DNA from: Hymenopellis radicata
Lineage: Eukaryota; Basidiomycota; Agaricomycetes; Agaricales; Physalacriaceae
NCBI GenBank assembly: GCA_015501595.1
Contig: JADNRX010000153.1
Coordinates: 1-64,000 of the forward strand
Direction: 5' to 3'
DNA length: 64,000 nt
Under the pieces are notes generated by a model. The model did not search any database. It worked only from the letters and a program-made list of their open reading frames with translations, and had not been told where the DNA came from. Positions within the stretch are counted from its first letter, which is position 1. Every line of letters begins with the position of its first letter. A program made the translations under genes and the position numbers. This document shows positions 44,326-56,785 of this stretch, in pieces.

Positions 44326-46587
44326 TCAAAGCGCAGCTTTTCCTCTCGAGTCAAATGGCAGCAGAAGAGCCACAAAGCCTGCAACAAGAAACAACGCGCC
44401 AGCAATATATATCGGAACACTTGTCCTCAAATTGGCGTATAGAGCGATGACGGGGGCCTGTACCATATTGTCAACGTTTGTCATGGACTTGACGTACAAC
44501 TTACCATAATCCCACATGTACGATTCGCTGCAGCTGCAAGCGCGTTCCCGGTCCCGCGATTCTTAGTCGGAAACAGCTCCGGTGTCAGGGCATACAGGAC
44601 GCCGTACATGACATTGCTTGTAAAGCTGTACGCACAATTCCATCCGAGGAGAGCCTTCGAGGACCGAGCCGTGGTAGAAGCAAGGATAAAGGCGCCTGTT
44701 AACAGGTGGATATTGAGAGAGTTCCTCGTCGGCCAAGAGAGGGGAGCTCCACGAGATACCCGGCTATAAGTGAGCCTGGGACGCCGATGACGCTCAGGAT
44801 GACTTGCTGGCAGTTATATGAGGTGGCGAGCGCGGACGTGCTGAATACACTTACATTACGGTATGTGAGAGACGTCGAACCGTCGCCAAAGTCTGCGCCG
44901 CGTGTAGCAAAACTGCGTGCGAGTATGAGTTCGAACGTAACTCTTGTCGCTGAAGAACACAAACATACAAAAAGGGGATAAAGGCGTTGTAAAGCGGAAA
45001 TGACAGGCCGAATAGCGCTAAGAAAAAAAAGTTAGTTCTAGATTGGAACGTGAAGCGAGGAAACACGAACCCCATATGACAATGATTAGACTCGTTGAAT
45101 ACGCCAGTTTCCTCGTAGCGAATAAGCTCTTCACATGGTCGGCACTGAGACCAGAGAGCGTGCGCCGAATGGCCCCCTTGGCGGAAGTATCCATCTCCTG
45201 GCATTCTTTCCCCAGAGCACCACGTAAATCCTCCACAGTCAGCCGGCACGCATCTGGCTTTCCGTTCCGTTCAGCAATCAAACGCAGAACATGAATCGCC
45301 TCCTCATCTCGTCCACGCCCCATGAGATACTTGGGACTCTCGTAGAGCCTAAACAAGAAGAACCGACAAGCCCACATCAGCAGCATCAGTCCACCCATCG
45401 CGAACAAGAAATATCGCCATCCTTGGTTATCCTGTCTCCTACACGGAACGGCGCCATCCTCACATGAGAAGTTGCCGATAAGCGCCCACGCAATCAAACT
45501 CCCAAGCAGCTGCCCGAATGCCCACCACATCGACAAAACGGTGAGAAGGTACTGATGGGACGCTGGGATGAACTCGAGGAAGATGGCCGAGTCCACCGGG
45601 AGGTTTCCACCAACACCGATGGACCATACTGCAGCCAGCGAGCTGACGGTGACGAAATTGGGAGAGCCTCCAGCAGCTGCGGCGAAGACACCTGCGATGA
45701 GGAGTGTTATATTGAACGAGAGCCGCCGCCCCCAAACGTCGGAGCCCACACCCCAGAACACGGCGCCGACGAGGAGACCTATGTTTTGGCTCAGTTGCAG
45801 AAAGGCGCCTTGTGATTGAAACTCCTGGACTACTTGGGGAAGGAAGAGGCCTGTGACTACCTGGGAAGGTGCTACTTCAGAGCTGTTGACTCGCGTTAAG
45901 AAGAACATACAGGCCAGAGGTTATCTCTTTTTTTTTTTTTTTTTTTTTTGGAGGACGCAGCTACACTTTCGTGTGATCATTGTTAGCGTACAGCACTTTT
46001 GTACTGTTTCCCGCGCCGCAGATCGCGTGTTTGTTCGAGGATATTTCAACCCCGCAACTTGTGCCAAGTTGTATGCTGGCAAGCCCAATAGGAAGAATGC
46101 ATTTACGCACGAACAGATGCCCAGTCTGAACAGTGTGGGACTCGCGTCGTTAGAAGCCATACCCACTAGAACTCCCTGGTGGTACGGCGTTGAACCCGCG
46201 ACTACGGGACCGGTGATCTACGGTTTACCCATAGACCAGAACGTGGGCTCAAGAACCACTCGCCCATGCGTCCCGCCAGAGTTATCTCTAAAGCAGACAT
46301 GATCAGACTCGAAGCTAGACATCTAGACGAATAGTTGATAACTCACGCGAACCAGCCAAATCCTGTCACGACAAACAGATCCCACTGCACAATCTTAATC
46401 CAGTATACGGCTCGAGACACAAATACGAACAGACCTGATACCGCCCCATACCAATCTCCTGCAGTGATCCATTAAGCAAGTCTACCTTCCGCTGATACTC
46501 GGAATCGACAATATACGCATCCACATCGCGTACGCCATCCACAGAGGCACGAACTCCGCCGTCCTTTTCGTTGTCAGCCATCGTCAT
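44326..46587 (-). CDS. MFS transporter, micro-exon hit by a SINE
   Basis: A twelve-helix major-facilitator permease of a fungal family related to phosphate/sugar porters; the substrate is unknown. Exon 1 (46435-46587) ends LQEIGMGRYQ and exon 2 (46347-46384) reads WDLFVVTGFGWFA. A 16-nt exon (45911-45926) then supplies DNLWP, and exon 4 from 45860 begins VVTGLFLPQVVQEF, followed by GVGSDVWGRRLSFN (loop 2-3 motif), GWRYFLFAMGGLMLLMWACR, LYESPKYLMGRGRDEEAI and a long cytoplasmic loop. Later exons give GLSFPLYNAFIPFL, GADFGDGSTSLTYRN, VILSVIGVPGSLIAGYLVEL and AGALFLVAGFVALLLPFDSR with TGA 44326-44328. A SINE (45928-46274) has inserted in the 16-nt exon, so correct splicing is doubtful. The start could be 46587 or 46581. 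Confidence 0.85.
45928..46274 (-). mobile_element. tRNA-related SINE with poly(A) tail and target duplication
   Basis: Read on the minus strand, the element begins GGGACGCATGGGCGAGTGGT (A-box-like, as in class II Leu/Ser tRNAs). It has GCGGGTTCAACGCC (B-box-like) about 90 bases in, followed by CCACCA, then a ~230-base body and a tail of 23 A (45928-45950). It is flanked by GAGATAACTCTGGC (46275-46288) and GAGATAACCTCTGGC (45913-45927), a 14/15-bp target duplication with one base missing in the upstream copy. Promoter boxes, oligo-A tail and duplication together identify a SINE mobilised by LINE-type machinery. It encodes no protein. Confidence 0.85.
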
Positions 46588-51462: not shown

Positions 51463-52340
51463 TTACTGCTTATCAAGGTGACGCTGTAGCAGCTCGTCCA
51501 TGACTTTGGTCAAAGGTCGGACAGGATTTTTGTGTTCTTTTTTGCGCCTAACAGGAATGTTTGTACTCGATACACAGAGTTAATCCGTACGCACCTTTCA
51601 TCAAACCAACGCTTGACTTTCAAAGGGGGCAGCTCCACCTTCTGCACCAGCGCGTCAAAGGTACCGGTCTGCTTTGGGTATGGATCTCGTTGGAAATGTT
51701 CCTCTAAGATAGCCACCTTGTAATAAGGCTTCCGTTTTGTCTTGGCAGGTGTCACGGTAAGTGGTATACCGGTCGGGAGAGAACCTTGGCGCGCCTTGTA
51801 TCTTCATGTACAGGTCAATGACATTTGGCTACCTAGCATATGAGTTATTTAGCTCACCGGATGTCGCTGAGCCGTCTGCTGAGTCTAGATTTGTTCGTGC
51901 CGAGGCGCTCCGCCAAGTCGACAAGCTCGCTTTCACTGGGGTACAGGTTGCGAGCGCATTGGTCCAATATTATCTTGCTTTGCTCGTCTGGTACACGTTC
52001 ATAACCGCGGAATTCGCTTGTGTCCTGTCCTTGAACACTGCGCGCCGCTTTGTCCGCGTCCCGACTGGAGAGTCTTGAGGTAAGCGTGATGAAGAATAAC
52101 GCGTTCTGCCACGTACCGACGACAAAACCAGCGCGAGATGGTCTTTATAGGGAAGCCCAGATCTCGTGCCACGATCTCTTGTCTCTCACGACTGGGATAA
52201 CGATCGTCTTTGTAGACGGATTCGAGCACCATCCGAAAAGGCCGAAGATTGCCTTTGGTTTGGAGAACGCTCGAAGTCGACGACAAGTACCGCTGTAATT
52301 TGAGTGTCCTGGTGGTGACATGTCGACAGAAATTGAACAT
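51463..52340 (-). CDS. Protein with three homeodomain-like units
   Basis: Four exons join in phase: 52117-52340, 51858-52064, 51595-51801 and 51463-51547 (introns 52, 56 and 47 nt). Unit A (VLESVYKDDRYPSRERQEIV ... GFPIKTISRWFCRRR) and unit C (AILEEHFQRDPYP ... LKVKRWFDERRKKE) fit the homeodomain pattern of L16, F/Y20, Y25-P26, W48-F49 and R53. Unit B (IILDQCARNLYPSESELVDL ... KSRLSRRLSDIR) keeps the helix spacing but lacks W48-F49. In all three the normally invariant Asn51 is replaced (Arg, Asp, Glu). The protein is ~240 residues, basic at the end of unit C, and ends LTKVMDELLQRHLDKQ. A nuclear DNA-binding role is inferred only. ATG 52340 is the first in frame; a gene on the other strand starts 87 bases away at 52427. 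Confidence 0.65.
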
Positions 52341-52426
52341 GGTCGCTTTTGACGCGTTGGTGACAAGTAAAGATGCATCGGCAAATTCCGGCAATCACAC
52401 AACACTTGCCTCTGCCCATCATCATC
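52341..52426. promoter_or_regulatory. Short divergent intergenic region
   Basis: Only 86 bases separate the start codons of the homeodomain-like gene (minus) and the coiled-coil gene (plus). Both promoters must overlap here or lie within the opposite gene. No TATA box is obvious. Confidence 0.4.
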
Positions 52427-53020
52427 ATGTCGGAACCCTTCGCGTCTGGATCAGGCTACGGTTCCATCTCGCCGACGTTCCCTCATGTCAACAACGTCTT
52501 CGCCGATCCTATGCAGCTCGAGCCACCTTCGGCTGATGTGACTGTCTTTAAGCAAAACATTCGCCTTATTTCTGAGCAGGTACTCCACCTGCAGAATGTC
52601 GCAAGGAGCGCGTTAGATGGGATGTTAGTTGGTCTCGCTCTGCTCTTTTTATTTTACCACCATTCTCATGCAGACAAAACGCGTACCACCCAGGCAGCAA
52701 TCCCGTTCAGACCGAATGTAACTAAATTGTCGTTTGCCAACGAAACAGTGCTAAAAAAGCTCCATTCTGCAGCTGACATCGCTACCCTCAAGCAGAATCT
52801 CGAAATGCTGTCCGAGCTGATGCGCCAGACTGGTGTGGGCGCGTTGCCTTTGCTGTCGATCGAGAACCCACCTCCGACGGAAGAGCAGATAATGTCAGAC
52901 GTGACAAAGTCGGTGGAGGTTTTGTACGCGCGTCTACAAAGAAATCAGGAAAGTGCGGGTGTAGTTGCCAAGTTGATGTCGGACGCGACTGGGGCTGCAA
53001 GGAAAGGCCCTGGCAAATGA
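52427..53020 (+). CDS. Small coiled-coil protein
   Basis: From ATG 52427 (MSEPFASGSGYGSISPTF) the gene has two inferred introns (52624-52673 and 52718-52772) and ends at TGA 53018-53020. The spliced product has heptad-like helical stretches (TVFKQNIRLISEQVLHLQNV and SDIATLKQNLEMLSELMRQT), a TGVGALPLL motif, and a C-terminal helix with KSVEVLYARLQRNQESAG. Length is about 160 residues. Without splicing out the second intron the frame also stays open in another phase, so the exact structure is uncertain. No family is recognised and function is unknown. It is divergent from the homeodomain-like gene. Confidence 0.55.
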   Translation: MSEPFASGSGYGSISPTFPHVNNVFADPMQLEPPSADVTVFKQNIRLISEQVLHLQNVARSALDGMLVGLALLFLFYHHSHADKTRTTQAAIPFRPNVTKLSFANETVLKKLHSAADIATLKQNLEMLSELMRQTGVGALPLLSIENPPPTEEQIMSDVTKSVEVLYARLQRNQESAGVVAKLMSDATGAARKGPGK

Positions 53021-54061
53021 TCTACGTAGGATGAATCACGACAGTGTACATATGTACACGTTGGTGGATGTCAATATGTCCCTTGTATTATTAATGTATC
53101 CAAGGTTAATATGGAGGAAGTGAAAAGGTCTCTGTCATGGGTTGTTCAAGGAGCTGCCATCCCTTCGATCTTGTGCCGGTGAGATTTTCTTCCTCCATCC
53201 CCGATGACTTATCGTTTAGAAGCCAAATAGACGCCCGGCGGACCCTTCGTAAGTGCGCATTTTTCCAAGGATTGACGCTCAACGAGTTCCCTTCTGCAGG
53301 ACGATACATTCACATTAACAGAAGACGACAAATGCACTCTTAGACGAGCTGAAAGACTCTACTTCTCTATATATGGAGTACGAACGCCTGCTTACTACCA
53401 ACCCCACCTGTGCATATGCTCTGGATCGACTAGTTCAAGCGGCTTCAGATCCACAGGCTGATACAATCAAGTTCGATTATCATCGCGCCTGCGTAATTAG
53501 CGATAGTTCTCACCAAGTTTTCACCTTACAACAGGCACAGAAGGATCATGACCTCGGGCCGCTGCTCAACGAGTTGGTCAAAATGCAAACGCGGCAATGG
53601 AGTCGCGCCTATTTCAGAGGACCACAAACGCTATAGAATTCGAACTAGGCCCCATAATGGAGAGAAGAGACTGCCGCTTCGCCGCCCCGTACGACAGCGT
53701 GTTTCTTTGGTAGTCTATGTTGTCATTGTTGTAGTCTTATGTCAAATTGAGCACGCCTCATGTTCCCCAAGTGCCACCACACATGTTGCCCTCGATTATC
53801 AGTCGTTCAACTTCGGCGTCTTTGCACCAAGTACATCATAAAATTCCGACCATTCAAGTATGTCTGTTTATTACATTCGTCCATACTCGGAACTACAGGG
53901 CAAAGAGAGTTGGTAAGGTAATGCAGCATGCAAATTAAATAGATAGTATAAATAACAGAGAGAGACAGAGTAAGTGGGTAGCATAAGTCATAAGCATAGG
54001 CATGAGAACGGAAAAACATATATGGTACAACGCGAAAGTGATAGAAAGGTATCTAAAGCTC
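53021..54061. other. Region with unrecognised short frames
   Basis: Frames at 53137-53343 and 53373-53636 (plus; the latter reads YERLLTTNPTCAYALDRLVQ) could be exons of a small gene, but I cannot connect them convincingly and recognise no family. The remainder to the F-box relic holds nothing I can name. Confidence 0.3.
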
Positions 54062-55698
54062 CTAGTCATCGTCATCGTCGGGCGCCAGGCTCAGGAAGGT
54101 CTTCTTTGCGACCACAATTGGACGCCAATCTACCGCGGCCTCCTTCTCCTGCGTAAGAAGAGGGAAAATCAAATAGAGAACATCTATCTTCTCGCCCACG
54201 TACGTCTCCGTGCCGTTCTCGCCCCGCACGAGGCGTCGCTCCCGGCGATCGCCCAAATAGCGCATGATGCTGCGGTGCGCCTGGTCGTCGGTGTCGACCG
54301 CGAAGCAGAGCTCCTTGACGCTGGCGAGAACGATGGGAATGTCCAAGACGTCGTCATCCTCCTTGGGAAGCATATCCAGCTGGGGGTATAGCATGCCCAT
54401 CAACAAGAAGCGGTCTGGGTTGTCAAGGCGGACCTTGCTCACGTTCTTCAAGCGCTGGAGGAGCTGGAAGGGCACGGGAAGCGACGACAAGGATACGGAG
54501 CCGCTGGCGCCATCTCCTCCGTGGCGATATACGGAGCCGGCGAGCCAAACTGGGCGTGCCGGAGCGTGAACGCTTCGAGCTGCTCGAAAGGGATCGAGGC
54601 GAGGAGGGCGGTGAAGGAGTTGAGCGTGTCCCCGTAAATCTCTGACTCCTCAGCAAAGTCAAAGTCCCCGGGAACTCTCTGGTCTCGATTGCTAATAGAA
54701 AGGTGCGTCAGGGCGGGCACGAGGAAGTTGCTCGCGAACGCGTCGAGCTCGACAGGCATGGTATATCCCAGTTTCAACTGGGTCAACCTGGTGAGCGTAA
54801 GAGGCGGCAAAACCATCCCCCCTTCTGGCTCGAGGTAGGGCAAAGCGCCTGTTAAGTTGAGGGTCTCGAGTGTGGCGCTGCACATCTCCAACACCGCGCG
54901 TAGTTGGGTCACCGTTGGGCGAGCCTGGAAGGGCAGTCTGGAAATCGTCAGGTGCACGAGGCCCGCACAACGAAGCGGTCCCAGTCATGGTAGGTGCCTG
55001 TTAGGTTAAGATGCCGGAGGCTGGGACAAAGGGGCTCTTCCGGCGTGCCAGGGAAGAAACATGACCTAGACCGAGGAACAGACGCGGTCTGTTGACTGTA
55101 TGTGGGGGCGTCAAAGCGTGGTGAAAACTCCTGCCAGTCGTCGTACGACCTATCAATCTTGAGATTGGTGAGGTTGTCAAGTACACGTCCACGCAGGACC
55201 TCGAGGAGGATCGCGGAGTGCTTCCACATGCCGGAAGTTTCGATGCAGAGAGTATGGATGCTACATACGTAGGCGTTAGGAGTGCAGCAAGCGACTTGGT
55301 CTGGTAAAATTCCCAAGGCGGGCTGAGATCGCGAACGTTGAGGTCAATAAAAATGTGGAGGGGCTGGGTGCGCGAACGCTCGAGCATCCTTTTGGTATCG
55401 GGGAATGCGTTACGGCGGAAGCGGACCTTGCGTCTTTTGCGCATGGCGATGTCGAGAGCAGAGAGCCTTCGGTCGATGGAGTCCTCGTTGATGAGGATGC
55501 GGTTCCACAACGTGGAGTCCCTGAGCGCGATGGCCCGCCATCGGAAACAGACTTGGGCAACGCGATGGGGGACCAGCTGTCGGAGCAAACGAGAAATTTG
55601 AAGATCTCGTTGAGGACATCGTCGCAGACTATGTTCTCGATGAGAGCATCGGGATCTTGAGGAGGGCGTTTATAGGTTTCGGAACTACTTAAACTCAA
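54062..55698 (-). pseudogene. F-box protein with LRR-like C-terminus, frameshifted
   Basis: From ATG 55698 (MSLSSSETYKRPPQDPDALI) an F-box follows (VCDDVLNEIFKFLVCSDSW, then AQVCFRWRAIALRDSTLWNR in another frame). Then come short leucine-rich segments (LLEVLRGRVLDNLTNLKI, CPSLRHLNLTGTYHDWDRF, LVHLTISRLPF, ATLETLNLTGALPYLEPE, LTRLTQLKLGY, LPVPFQLLQRLKNVSKVRL). The end is acidic (FLSLAPDDDDD). Single-base shifts break the frame near 55570, 55262, 54965 and 54493; none has intron borders. As with the F-box gene at 39344, this is decay typical of an expanding family, or error-rich sequence. Confidence 0.75.
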
Positions 55699-56073
55699 TA
55701 AGCAAAAGACGCGAGCATTAAGGAGAGAGACACAAACCTGTCTGTTTGAGCAAGCGAGTCCATGACGGCAGAGCTGGGAATGGGTTGGGAGAGCTGGTAG
55801 ATAGCGGAAGATAGTTGTGTAGTGGGGAAATATCTAACTCGAGGTGCGCATTATGTAGCGGCCAGCGTTCATGGCTAACCCTGACGCGTCCAACTTCCCG
55901 AATCGTTGAACAATGGCATTGTTTTGAATGCGTCGAACAAAGGAGATCATCTCGTCCACATTTGACGCGTGAATTTGTTTTTAGAACACCCATTTGGGAC
56001 ACAATAGACTCCGGGGCAAACAGTGTGGACTCTTGAGAGAACGGCGGTTCTCGAGATGTATAATCGATAATAA
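55699..56073. other. Intergenic region
   Basis: Upstream region of the F-box relic; nothing else recognised. Confidence 0.35.
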
Positions 56074-56400
56074 TTAATCCGAGGCACAAGTGGTGGAGTT
56101 CGGCCCTTCCGTGACTGCGAGTCCGCATTCCGGATCGAATATTTGGATGTCGCAAGCATCGTTTGGTCTGCCCTCGGCGTCAGGGAGGTACAGGAGCTCT
56201 GCAAAGAACTGGTATGCCTCATCTATAGTTACAGTTAGTTGGGCCGCGGTAGAGAAGGGAATCACATACTTTGATCAGTATTGCTGTACGTATATCGCCT
56301 GCACTCCCAGCCACCATTTTCGATCCTCTCCTCCACGGCTGCACGCGTCTTCGTAGTCAGAAGTAATTTGTATATACGAGCGCCACGGCTAGGACCCGTA
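56074..56400 (-). CDS. Unrecognised 3' gene fragment
   Basis: On the minus strand a frame containing TRAAVEERIENGGWECRRYT can be spliced over a ~47-nt intron (GTATGT ... ACTATAG) to EAYQFFAELLYLPDAEGRPN and DIQIFDPECGLAVTEGPNST, ending at TAA near 56074. The intron has good ends and a CTAAC branch site, so this looks like a genuine exon pair. Upstream sequence has stops and no clear start. Function unknown. Confidence 0.35.
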
Positions 56401-56785
56401 TCAAAGCGTAGAAAGGATTTTCAGGAGACGAGCACAAGTGGTTCGTGTCCTGACTCTTTAAGTTGTCTGTCCAGGTCTTGAAAGCAAATTCAACTCCCTA
56501 ATAACCTCCATATCTTCGTTTGTAAACGAGTCCAAGCCCAGCAGTCCGAAATAAGGACGTACCGCCAAGGAATCAGGATACGTTGCTTAGGTGGTGTAGG
56601 GATTTGATCTTATTTTTTTGTTTCCCTCTCCTGCAGGAGGTTCAATCTATCTTTCTAAAGTCAAGTACGAGCGGTTCACAAGAGAAAATGAGAGTCATTG
56701 CAAGTATGCATTGTTCGAACGAAATGAATGTATTTTGTGCGCCACCTAACCAAGAATGTTCTCAGGCGTCTACCTACGACGAGCA
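56401..56785. other. Intergenic region
   Basis: Nothing recognised between the fragment above and the end of UTP22. It contains the 3' region of UTP22. Confidence 0.35.

Follow-up and report, generated by a model that had tools for sequence, protein, structure and literature searches.

A SINE inserted in a 16-nt micro-exon of an SV2-like MFS transporter gene of Hymenopellis radicata, and its predicted effects on splicing

Introduction

What becomes of a transcript when a retroelement lands in an exon of only 16 nucleotides and duplicates almost all of it? This question is raised by a transporter gene of Hymenopellis radicata, an agaric of the family Physalacriaceae, found in a stretch of 64,000 nucleotides (here called the window, C467:1-64000) of an assembly of 75.5 Mb in 1405 contigs. 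We infer that this assembly is the genome of strain IJFM A160, as described in the relevant part of PMC8480192. An original prediction, made from the letters of the window, had proposed that a SINE was inserted exactly into a micro-exon of this gene; the gene, its paralogues, the element and the possible splicing outcomes were analyzed here.

Results

The host gene and its locus

The gene is encoded on the reverse strand, with its 3' end at 44326 and a total of 1,514 bases in exons. Apart from the micro-exon, its coding parts are the following:

46435..46581, reverse strand: exon 1, 147 nt, from the start ATG to MGRYQ, identical to the public protein P0010
46347..46384, reverse strand: exon 2, 38 nt, WDLFVVTGFGWF plus GC, ending in GFGWFA, aligned to contigs C302 and C1221
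45071..45860, reverse strand: exon 4, 790 nt, VVTGLFLPQ ... IVIW, from comparison with the paralogue and P0010
44326..45017, reverse strand: exons 5-8 with their introns, from comparison with the paralogue; the start of exon 5 is approximate

All 330 residues encoded by exons 1-4 match P0010, annotated as 'MFS general substrate transporter [Hymenopellis radicata]'. The frame of exon 4 gave hits to Pfam Sugar_tr and MFS_1 with 57 and 51.8 bits (cut-offs of 22.3 and 33.4), and its best solved relative in the PDB is SV2A (E 7.4e-12). The gene belongs to the SV2-like MFS transporters, and within them to a fungal branch with the motif [A/S]DNLWP. Compared over 497 codons with an intact paralogue of 509 residues on C1221, it shows 81% identity, with a dN of 0.110, a dS of 1.04 and a dN/dS of 0.105, a ratio in which one 14-codon piece uses a C1221 exon end placed a base short. 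These values suggest that the host gene is, on average, under constraint.

In a tree of 26 proteins (25 picked from 120 homologues listed of the 2,709 found, plus that of C1221), P0010 joins the Mucidula proteins and those of Hymenopellis C302/C1221, in a position outside them, with support of 100/99, so the gene duplication appears to be younger than the split from the Armillaria lineage. Pieces of the window between 56700 and 59000 are 83-93% identical to sequences upstream of the MFS gene on C302 and C1221 and share their relative orientation, which may point to a segmental duplication including this gene. The region at about 51900-56600 is a dispersed repeat, probably a transposon, with long matches of 78-91% on C302, C550 (twice) and C1368.

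A 16-nt exon shared with the paralogues

Between exons 2 and 4 the following elements were located:

46288..46346, reverse strand: native intron 2, 59 nt, gtgagt ... ctgat ... ctttag, complete, with ctgat as putative branch region
45911..45926, reverse strand: micro-exon (exon 3), 16 nt, A-GAT-AAC-CTC-TGG-CCT (AGATAACCTCTGGCCT), encoding ADNLWP, with donor gtatgt, from comparison with paralogues
45861..45910, reverse strand: native intron 3, 50 nt, gtatgt ... cccag, complete

The limits that had been proposed for the neighbouring exons, with exon 2 ending in GFGWFA (46347) and exon 4 starting with VVTGLFLPQ (45860), were confirmed by the sequence, as was the 16-nt exon at 45911-45926 with its gtatgt donor. 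Such an exon had been expected also in SINE-free relatives, and it is present in the paralogues of the same genome, which were the relatives checked. Contigs C302 and C1221, both SINE-free, carry it at the same place (ttcgc/gtaagt...cttatcag/AGATAACCTTTGGCCT/gtcagt...ccacag/GTAGTC); their alignment of 2,882 bases contains 58 substitutions (2.0%), and they are probably alleles of one locus. Contig C380, also SINE-free, again has a 16-nt exon at this position (ctacag/TGATAGCGTGTGGCCG/gttcgt), and five matched pieces of it are 42-61% identical, at the protein level, to the window gene in the frame of exon 4. Therefore, 16 nt are found in the same phase at three loci (the window, C302/C1221 taken as one, and C380), supporting that the micro-exon is real, flanked by introns and conserved among paralogues of this genome; its size is well within the limit of ~30 nt used for micro-exons.

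The corresponding residues are present in protein models, P0001 and P0010 among them. In the 120 listed homologues (2,709 were found), SDNLWP appears in 59, ADNLWP in 52 and VDNLWP in 4, whereas four variant motifs appear once each and one protein has no match. Of the family motif that had been put forward, FADNLWLQ, the core DNLW was right and the ending was not, since here the motif is [A/S/V]DNLWP; by eye, the form with W-L-Q belongs to another permease, on contig C1096. The micro-exon appears to be constitutive, because its skipping yields a stop.

Further members of the gene family were looked for with a pattern that matched 24 places, of which 21 were viewed by eye and three others lie on the reverse strand (one of these being the window gene itself); only the window, C302, C1221 and C380 were recognised by eye as members. 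The permease on C1096, at about 165.4 kb (L056, 872-888), carries GFGWMADNMWLQ and an apparent 17-nt exon, GCTGGATGGCGGACAAT, nearly at the same protein position as the 16-nt exon, in another phase (by eye).

Anatomy of the insertion

The element and its flanks consist of these parts:

46275..46288, reverse strand: upstream copy of the target duplication, GAGATAACTCTGGC, 14 nt as assembled, one C fewer than the downstream copy
45928..46274, reverse strand: full-length SINE, 347 nt including a tail of 22 A, with B-box-like GGTTCAACGCC and A-box-like TGGGCGAGTGG, from comparison of the repeat family
45928..45949, reverse strand: A-tail of the SINE, 22 A as assembled, from the alignment of copies
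45913..45927, reverse strand: downstream copy of the target duplication, GAGATAACCTCTGGC, 15 nt, whose first G forms AG with the last A of the tail

The duplication had been equated with the exon. It consists in fact of exon bases 1-14 preceded by the G of the acceptor, and the final CT of the 16-nt exon is not duplicated. The rest of the proposed arrangement was found as described: the upstream copy has the natural acceptor ctttag, in such a way that native intron 2 is complete with its 59 nt, the downstream copy is followed by what is needed for the whole exon and its gtatgt donor, and the AG in front of it is rebuilt from the last A of the tail and the G of the duplication. The tail itself, counted at 45949-45928, has 22 A and not the 23 first reported. 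A repeat finder did not report the duplication in the window, and when its 15 letters were searched for, with three mismatches allowed but no gaps, the downstream copy was the only match (1.53 matches expected by chance); both searches missed the pair because its copies differ by an indel, and the copies were paired because they fall exactly at both ends of the element.

An assembly chimera as the cause of the insertion was rejected, given the exact ends of the element and the matching duplications. The chance of such an agreement with the exon, computed post hoc, is 4 of ~2,250 gene positions, the insertion included, and no special mechanism is needed for the coincidence. No SINE-free allele of the locus was found in the assembly, where the flanks match themselves at 100% and paralogues at 69-76%; a neighbouring ORF of 1,860 nt used as an allele probe matched itself plus one short piece at 69%. 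The empty site would thus be that reconstructed from paralogues and flanks.

The SINE and its family

The inserted element is a member of a dispersed repeat family, with at least 34 matches in the assembly. Sixteen loci were examined and both ends were found in nine, including that of the window; all nine have an A-tail and flanking target duplications, the latter read by eye. The first letters of these nine copies were fixed by the 5' search pattern, whereas the match ends are independent of it: seven of the eight other copies begin exactly with the first base of the SINE (query position 25), and one begins two positions earlier, at 23. Duplications of the other copies mostly begin with A, or with G followed by A (by eye), and the site AG/AGAT in the window fits this preference.

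Patterns for the A-box and B-box of pol III promoters were also searched. Copy L004 contains a perfect B-box pattern (0.04 expected), and its A-box was matched only with one mismatch, among four such matches against 1.98 expected. Neither ARAGORN nor Rfam at gathering thresholds detected a tRNA or other Rfam ancestry in the window, and no tRNA, 5S or 7SL family was matched by L004 in Rfam at E up to 10, although diverged SINEs can escape these searches.

The SINE in the window shows no substitutions against its copy on C496, so the insertion is taken as recent. Moreover, copy L004 on C240 (4194-5793) is absent from the matching place on C1 (974683-975900), where the flanks match at 97% and 99% and overlap by 17 nt, corresponding to one copy of the duplication; the SINE family is therefore polymorphic within the strain. 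Empty alleles were not found for the C496 copy, which gave only pieces of 72-92% on the same contig, nor in the assembly for the C774 copy.

The last 60-130 nt of the SINE (about 45928-46060 in the window) are common to other repeats, for instance L016, L017 and L021-L027. This shared 3' end is perhaps the tail of a partner element; no partner LINE was recognised by eye among the ORFs near loci that share SINE sequence. Separately, loci L014 and L015, on contigs C456 and C723, contain a shorter relative of the SINE flanked by a repeat of ~20 nt with AAGGTAAGT, which resembles a 5' splice site (by eye); the two contigs look allelic (by eye).

Predicted splicing outcomes

The products that could arise from this arrangement were computed. 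Removal of both native introns leaves an exon of 377 nt (46287-45911) with a stop at codon 85. If intron 2 is extended to the AG made with the tail (45927), an intron of 420 nt is removed, and exon and frame are restored. Use of a cryptic AG at 45966 keeps the frame with 13 extra residues, and that at 45961 leads to a stop. Skipping of the micro-exon had been said to shift the frame; the frame is indeed lost, and more exactly the junction reads GCG TAG, an immediate stop, which is also the result when everything is retained. Six combinations of the upstream acceptor with donor-like sites of the SINE were also tried, and every one of them led to a stop or to a shifted frame.

The upstream copy had been regarded as a dead end for lack of a donor of its own. 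With intron 2 (59 nt) and intron 3 (50 nt) each complete, however, the simplest prediction is an exon that retains the SINE. The locus had been called a clear natural experiment on micro-exon recognition; the sequence makes it a candidate for one. Intron definition is concluded to be the main mode of splicing in fungi, with an extension to basidiomycetes (Cryptococcus, Ustilago), in the part of PMC2397502 that deals with them. Taking together the two complete native introns and this mode of recognition, we favour, with moderate confidence, removal of both native introns and retention of the SINE in an exon of 377 nt that carries a premature stop, giving a loss-of-function allele. Two observations count against this: the published gene model P0010 joins exon 2 to the downstream copy of the micro-exon, with the SINE removed in a 420-nt intron, and there are a branch-like CTAAC and several AGs within the SINE.

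The first of these observations leads to an unlikely but serious alternative, in which splicing from the donor of intron 2 to the AG shared between tail and duplication removes the SINE within the 420-nt intron, and the frame is restored by the 16-nt exon. P0010 encodes exactly this splice junction, and the sequence contains the AG, the micro-exon of 16 nt and its gtatgt donor. However, an intron of 420 nt contrasts with the seven introns of the C1221 paralogue, of 47-58 nt, 22 A occupy the normal position of the pyrimidines, and the native acceptor at 46288 is intact and would compete. Besides, P0010 also departs from the paralogue at a frame break near 44704, where it is net 12 residues short, and this suggests a gene model driven by homology. 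RNA-seq was used somewhere in the annotation, according to the portion of PMC8480192 concerned with it.

More generally, since the SINE ends in A and is followed by a duplication whose first base is the acceptor G, an AG is rebuilt behind the element, and retrotransposition at the boundary between AG and micro-exon might automatically regenerate the AG, the exact exon and its donor, so that a SINE in a coding exon would be removed as an intron; we consider this rather unlikely.

The second observation points to a cryptic acceptor in the SINE, at the AG of 45966 or 45961, downstream of CTAAC (branch A at 45983). The AG at 45966 lies 17 nt from this branch-like site and adds VAASSKKKKKKKR in frame ahead of DNLWP. 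Against it, the region is purine-rich and the intron would have 381 nt, the frame is set by the length of the A-tail, which is uncertain in the assembly, and 8 of the 13 added residues are charged, beside what is probably the first membrane helix. We find this outcome highly improbable.

One-base differences and a second frame break

The sequence of the window differs from related copies by several single bases, one of them in the coding region:

44700..44706, reverse strand: one-base deletion against paralogue C1221, followed at once by an in-frame TAA, from the alignment and the P0010 model

This deletion near 44704 is the only coding indel in the aligned exons that is not a multiple of three. 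If it were a real 1-nt deletion, the gene would be a pseudogene independently of the SINE, and splicing would be without consequence. Agreeing with this are the in-frame TAA relative to C1221 and the end branch of P0010, of 0.5, the third longest in the tree of 26 proteins after those of P0096 (0.62) and P0060 (0.52). On the other side, the other coding indels in aligned exons preserve the frame and the dN/dS is low, as given above, and similar one-base differences break the C302 allele relative to C1221, making an assembly error plausible. A pseudogene of this origin seems decidedly improbable to us.

Compared with the nearest copy, that of C496, the SINE of the window has eight one-base deletions and one one-base insertion, with seven of the eight deletions in two-base runs (by eye). 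The 28 pairs among the other eight copies have at most four indel events each, with 0 to 9 substitutions. The contrast in indels within the SINE copies gave p = 0.009, on few events and with copy L009 used twice, and that between SINE and exons gave p = 6e-7, a value biased by selection, which removes coding indels. The C missing from the upstream duplication (CC to C) is of the same type as the SINE deletions. In C302 against C1221, one-base losses occur in coding G runs, and the public model P0002 retains intron 3 beside one of them. The methods given for the whole genome set in the pertinent section of PMC8480192 include PacBio, Falcon and Quiver.

With nine one-base indels and no substitutions in the SINE, the base absent from the upstream copy is probably a consensus error. 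The statement that this copy has lost one base is thus right for the assembly, with 14 nt, and probably wrong as a true loss; the frame break near 44704 is possibly another such error. However, hardly any such indels are seen in the other eight SINE copies or in the exons of this gene, which requires a local cause or a real mutation. As a bold inference, reads from a SINE-free nucleus could have biased the consensus of the insertion toward deletions, in which case the SINE allele may be heterozygous in this strain.

Discussion

The best explanation of the locus is that a fungal SINE of roughly 334 nt, plus its A-tail, was inserted recently by retrotransposition, presumably through target-primed reverse transcription. 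With nicks at the acceptor of intron 2 and slightly before the end of exon 3, of 16 nt, the duplication seen in the sequence (acceptor G plus exon bases 1-14) would result, and introns 2 and 3 retain their native donors, acceptors and lengths. By intron definition both introns would still be spliced out, with the SINE left between them, converting the 16-nt exon into one of 377 nt with a stop at codon 85; the transcript of this loss-of-function allele would probably be a target of nonsense-mediated decay.

This is a rare and clean insertion, of a known kind of event. In SINE and Alu exonization a retroelement alters the splicing of its host through cryptic sites, or stays in the exon, and the element described here may likewise do either; in contrast to those cases, its target is an exon of 16 nt, so that the duplication takes in almost all of the exon together with part of the acceptor. 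In a limited search of the literature on SINEs in micro-exons, fungal SINEs and fungal micro-exons, no case of a SINE in a micro-exon was found.

Among fungal SINEs of tRNA type, the MgSINE, Foxy and AfuSINE2 families, as far as they are treated in the corresponding part of PMC5063351, are similarly short and non-coding, with a B-box-like motif, flanking target duplications and low copy number. Unlike them, the SINE of the window gave no tRNA match (ARAGORN in the window, Rfam with L004), belongs to an agaric and ends in a tail of 22 A. As to the exon, the Xlr2 micro-exon of Trichoderma virens, as presented in a section of PMC11121469, is also a very short exon of a filamentous fungus, whereas that of the window appears to be constitutive and is known here from the sequence alone.

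The probable consensus errors indicate that, in a draft genome, they can mimic mutation and bend gene models. If the SINE were after all removed through the acceptor made with its own tail, this basidiomycete would offer a case of a poly(A) tail doing the work of the pyrimidine tract, and a single step would have sufficed to make a SINE a piece of an intron. At this single locus, intron definition, exon skipping and the tail-made acceptor predict products of clearly different length, so that it could serve to test how fungi recognise exons of 16 nt and whether a poly(A) tail can precede a 3' splice site.
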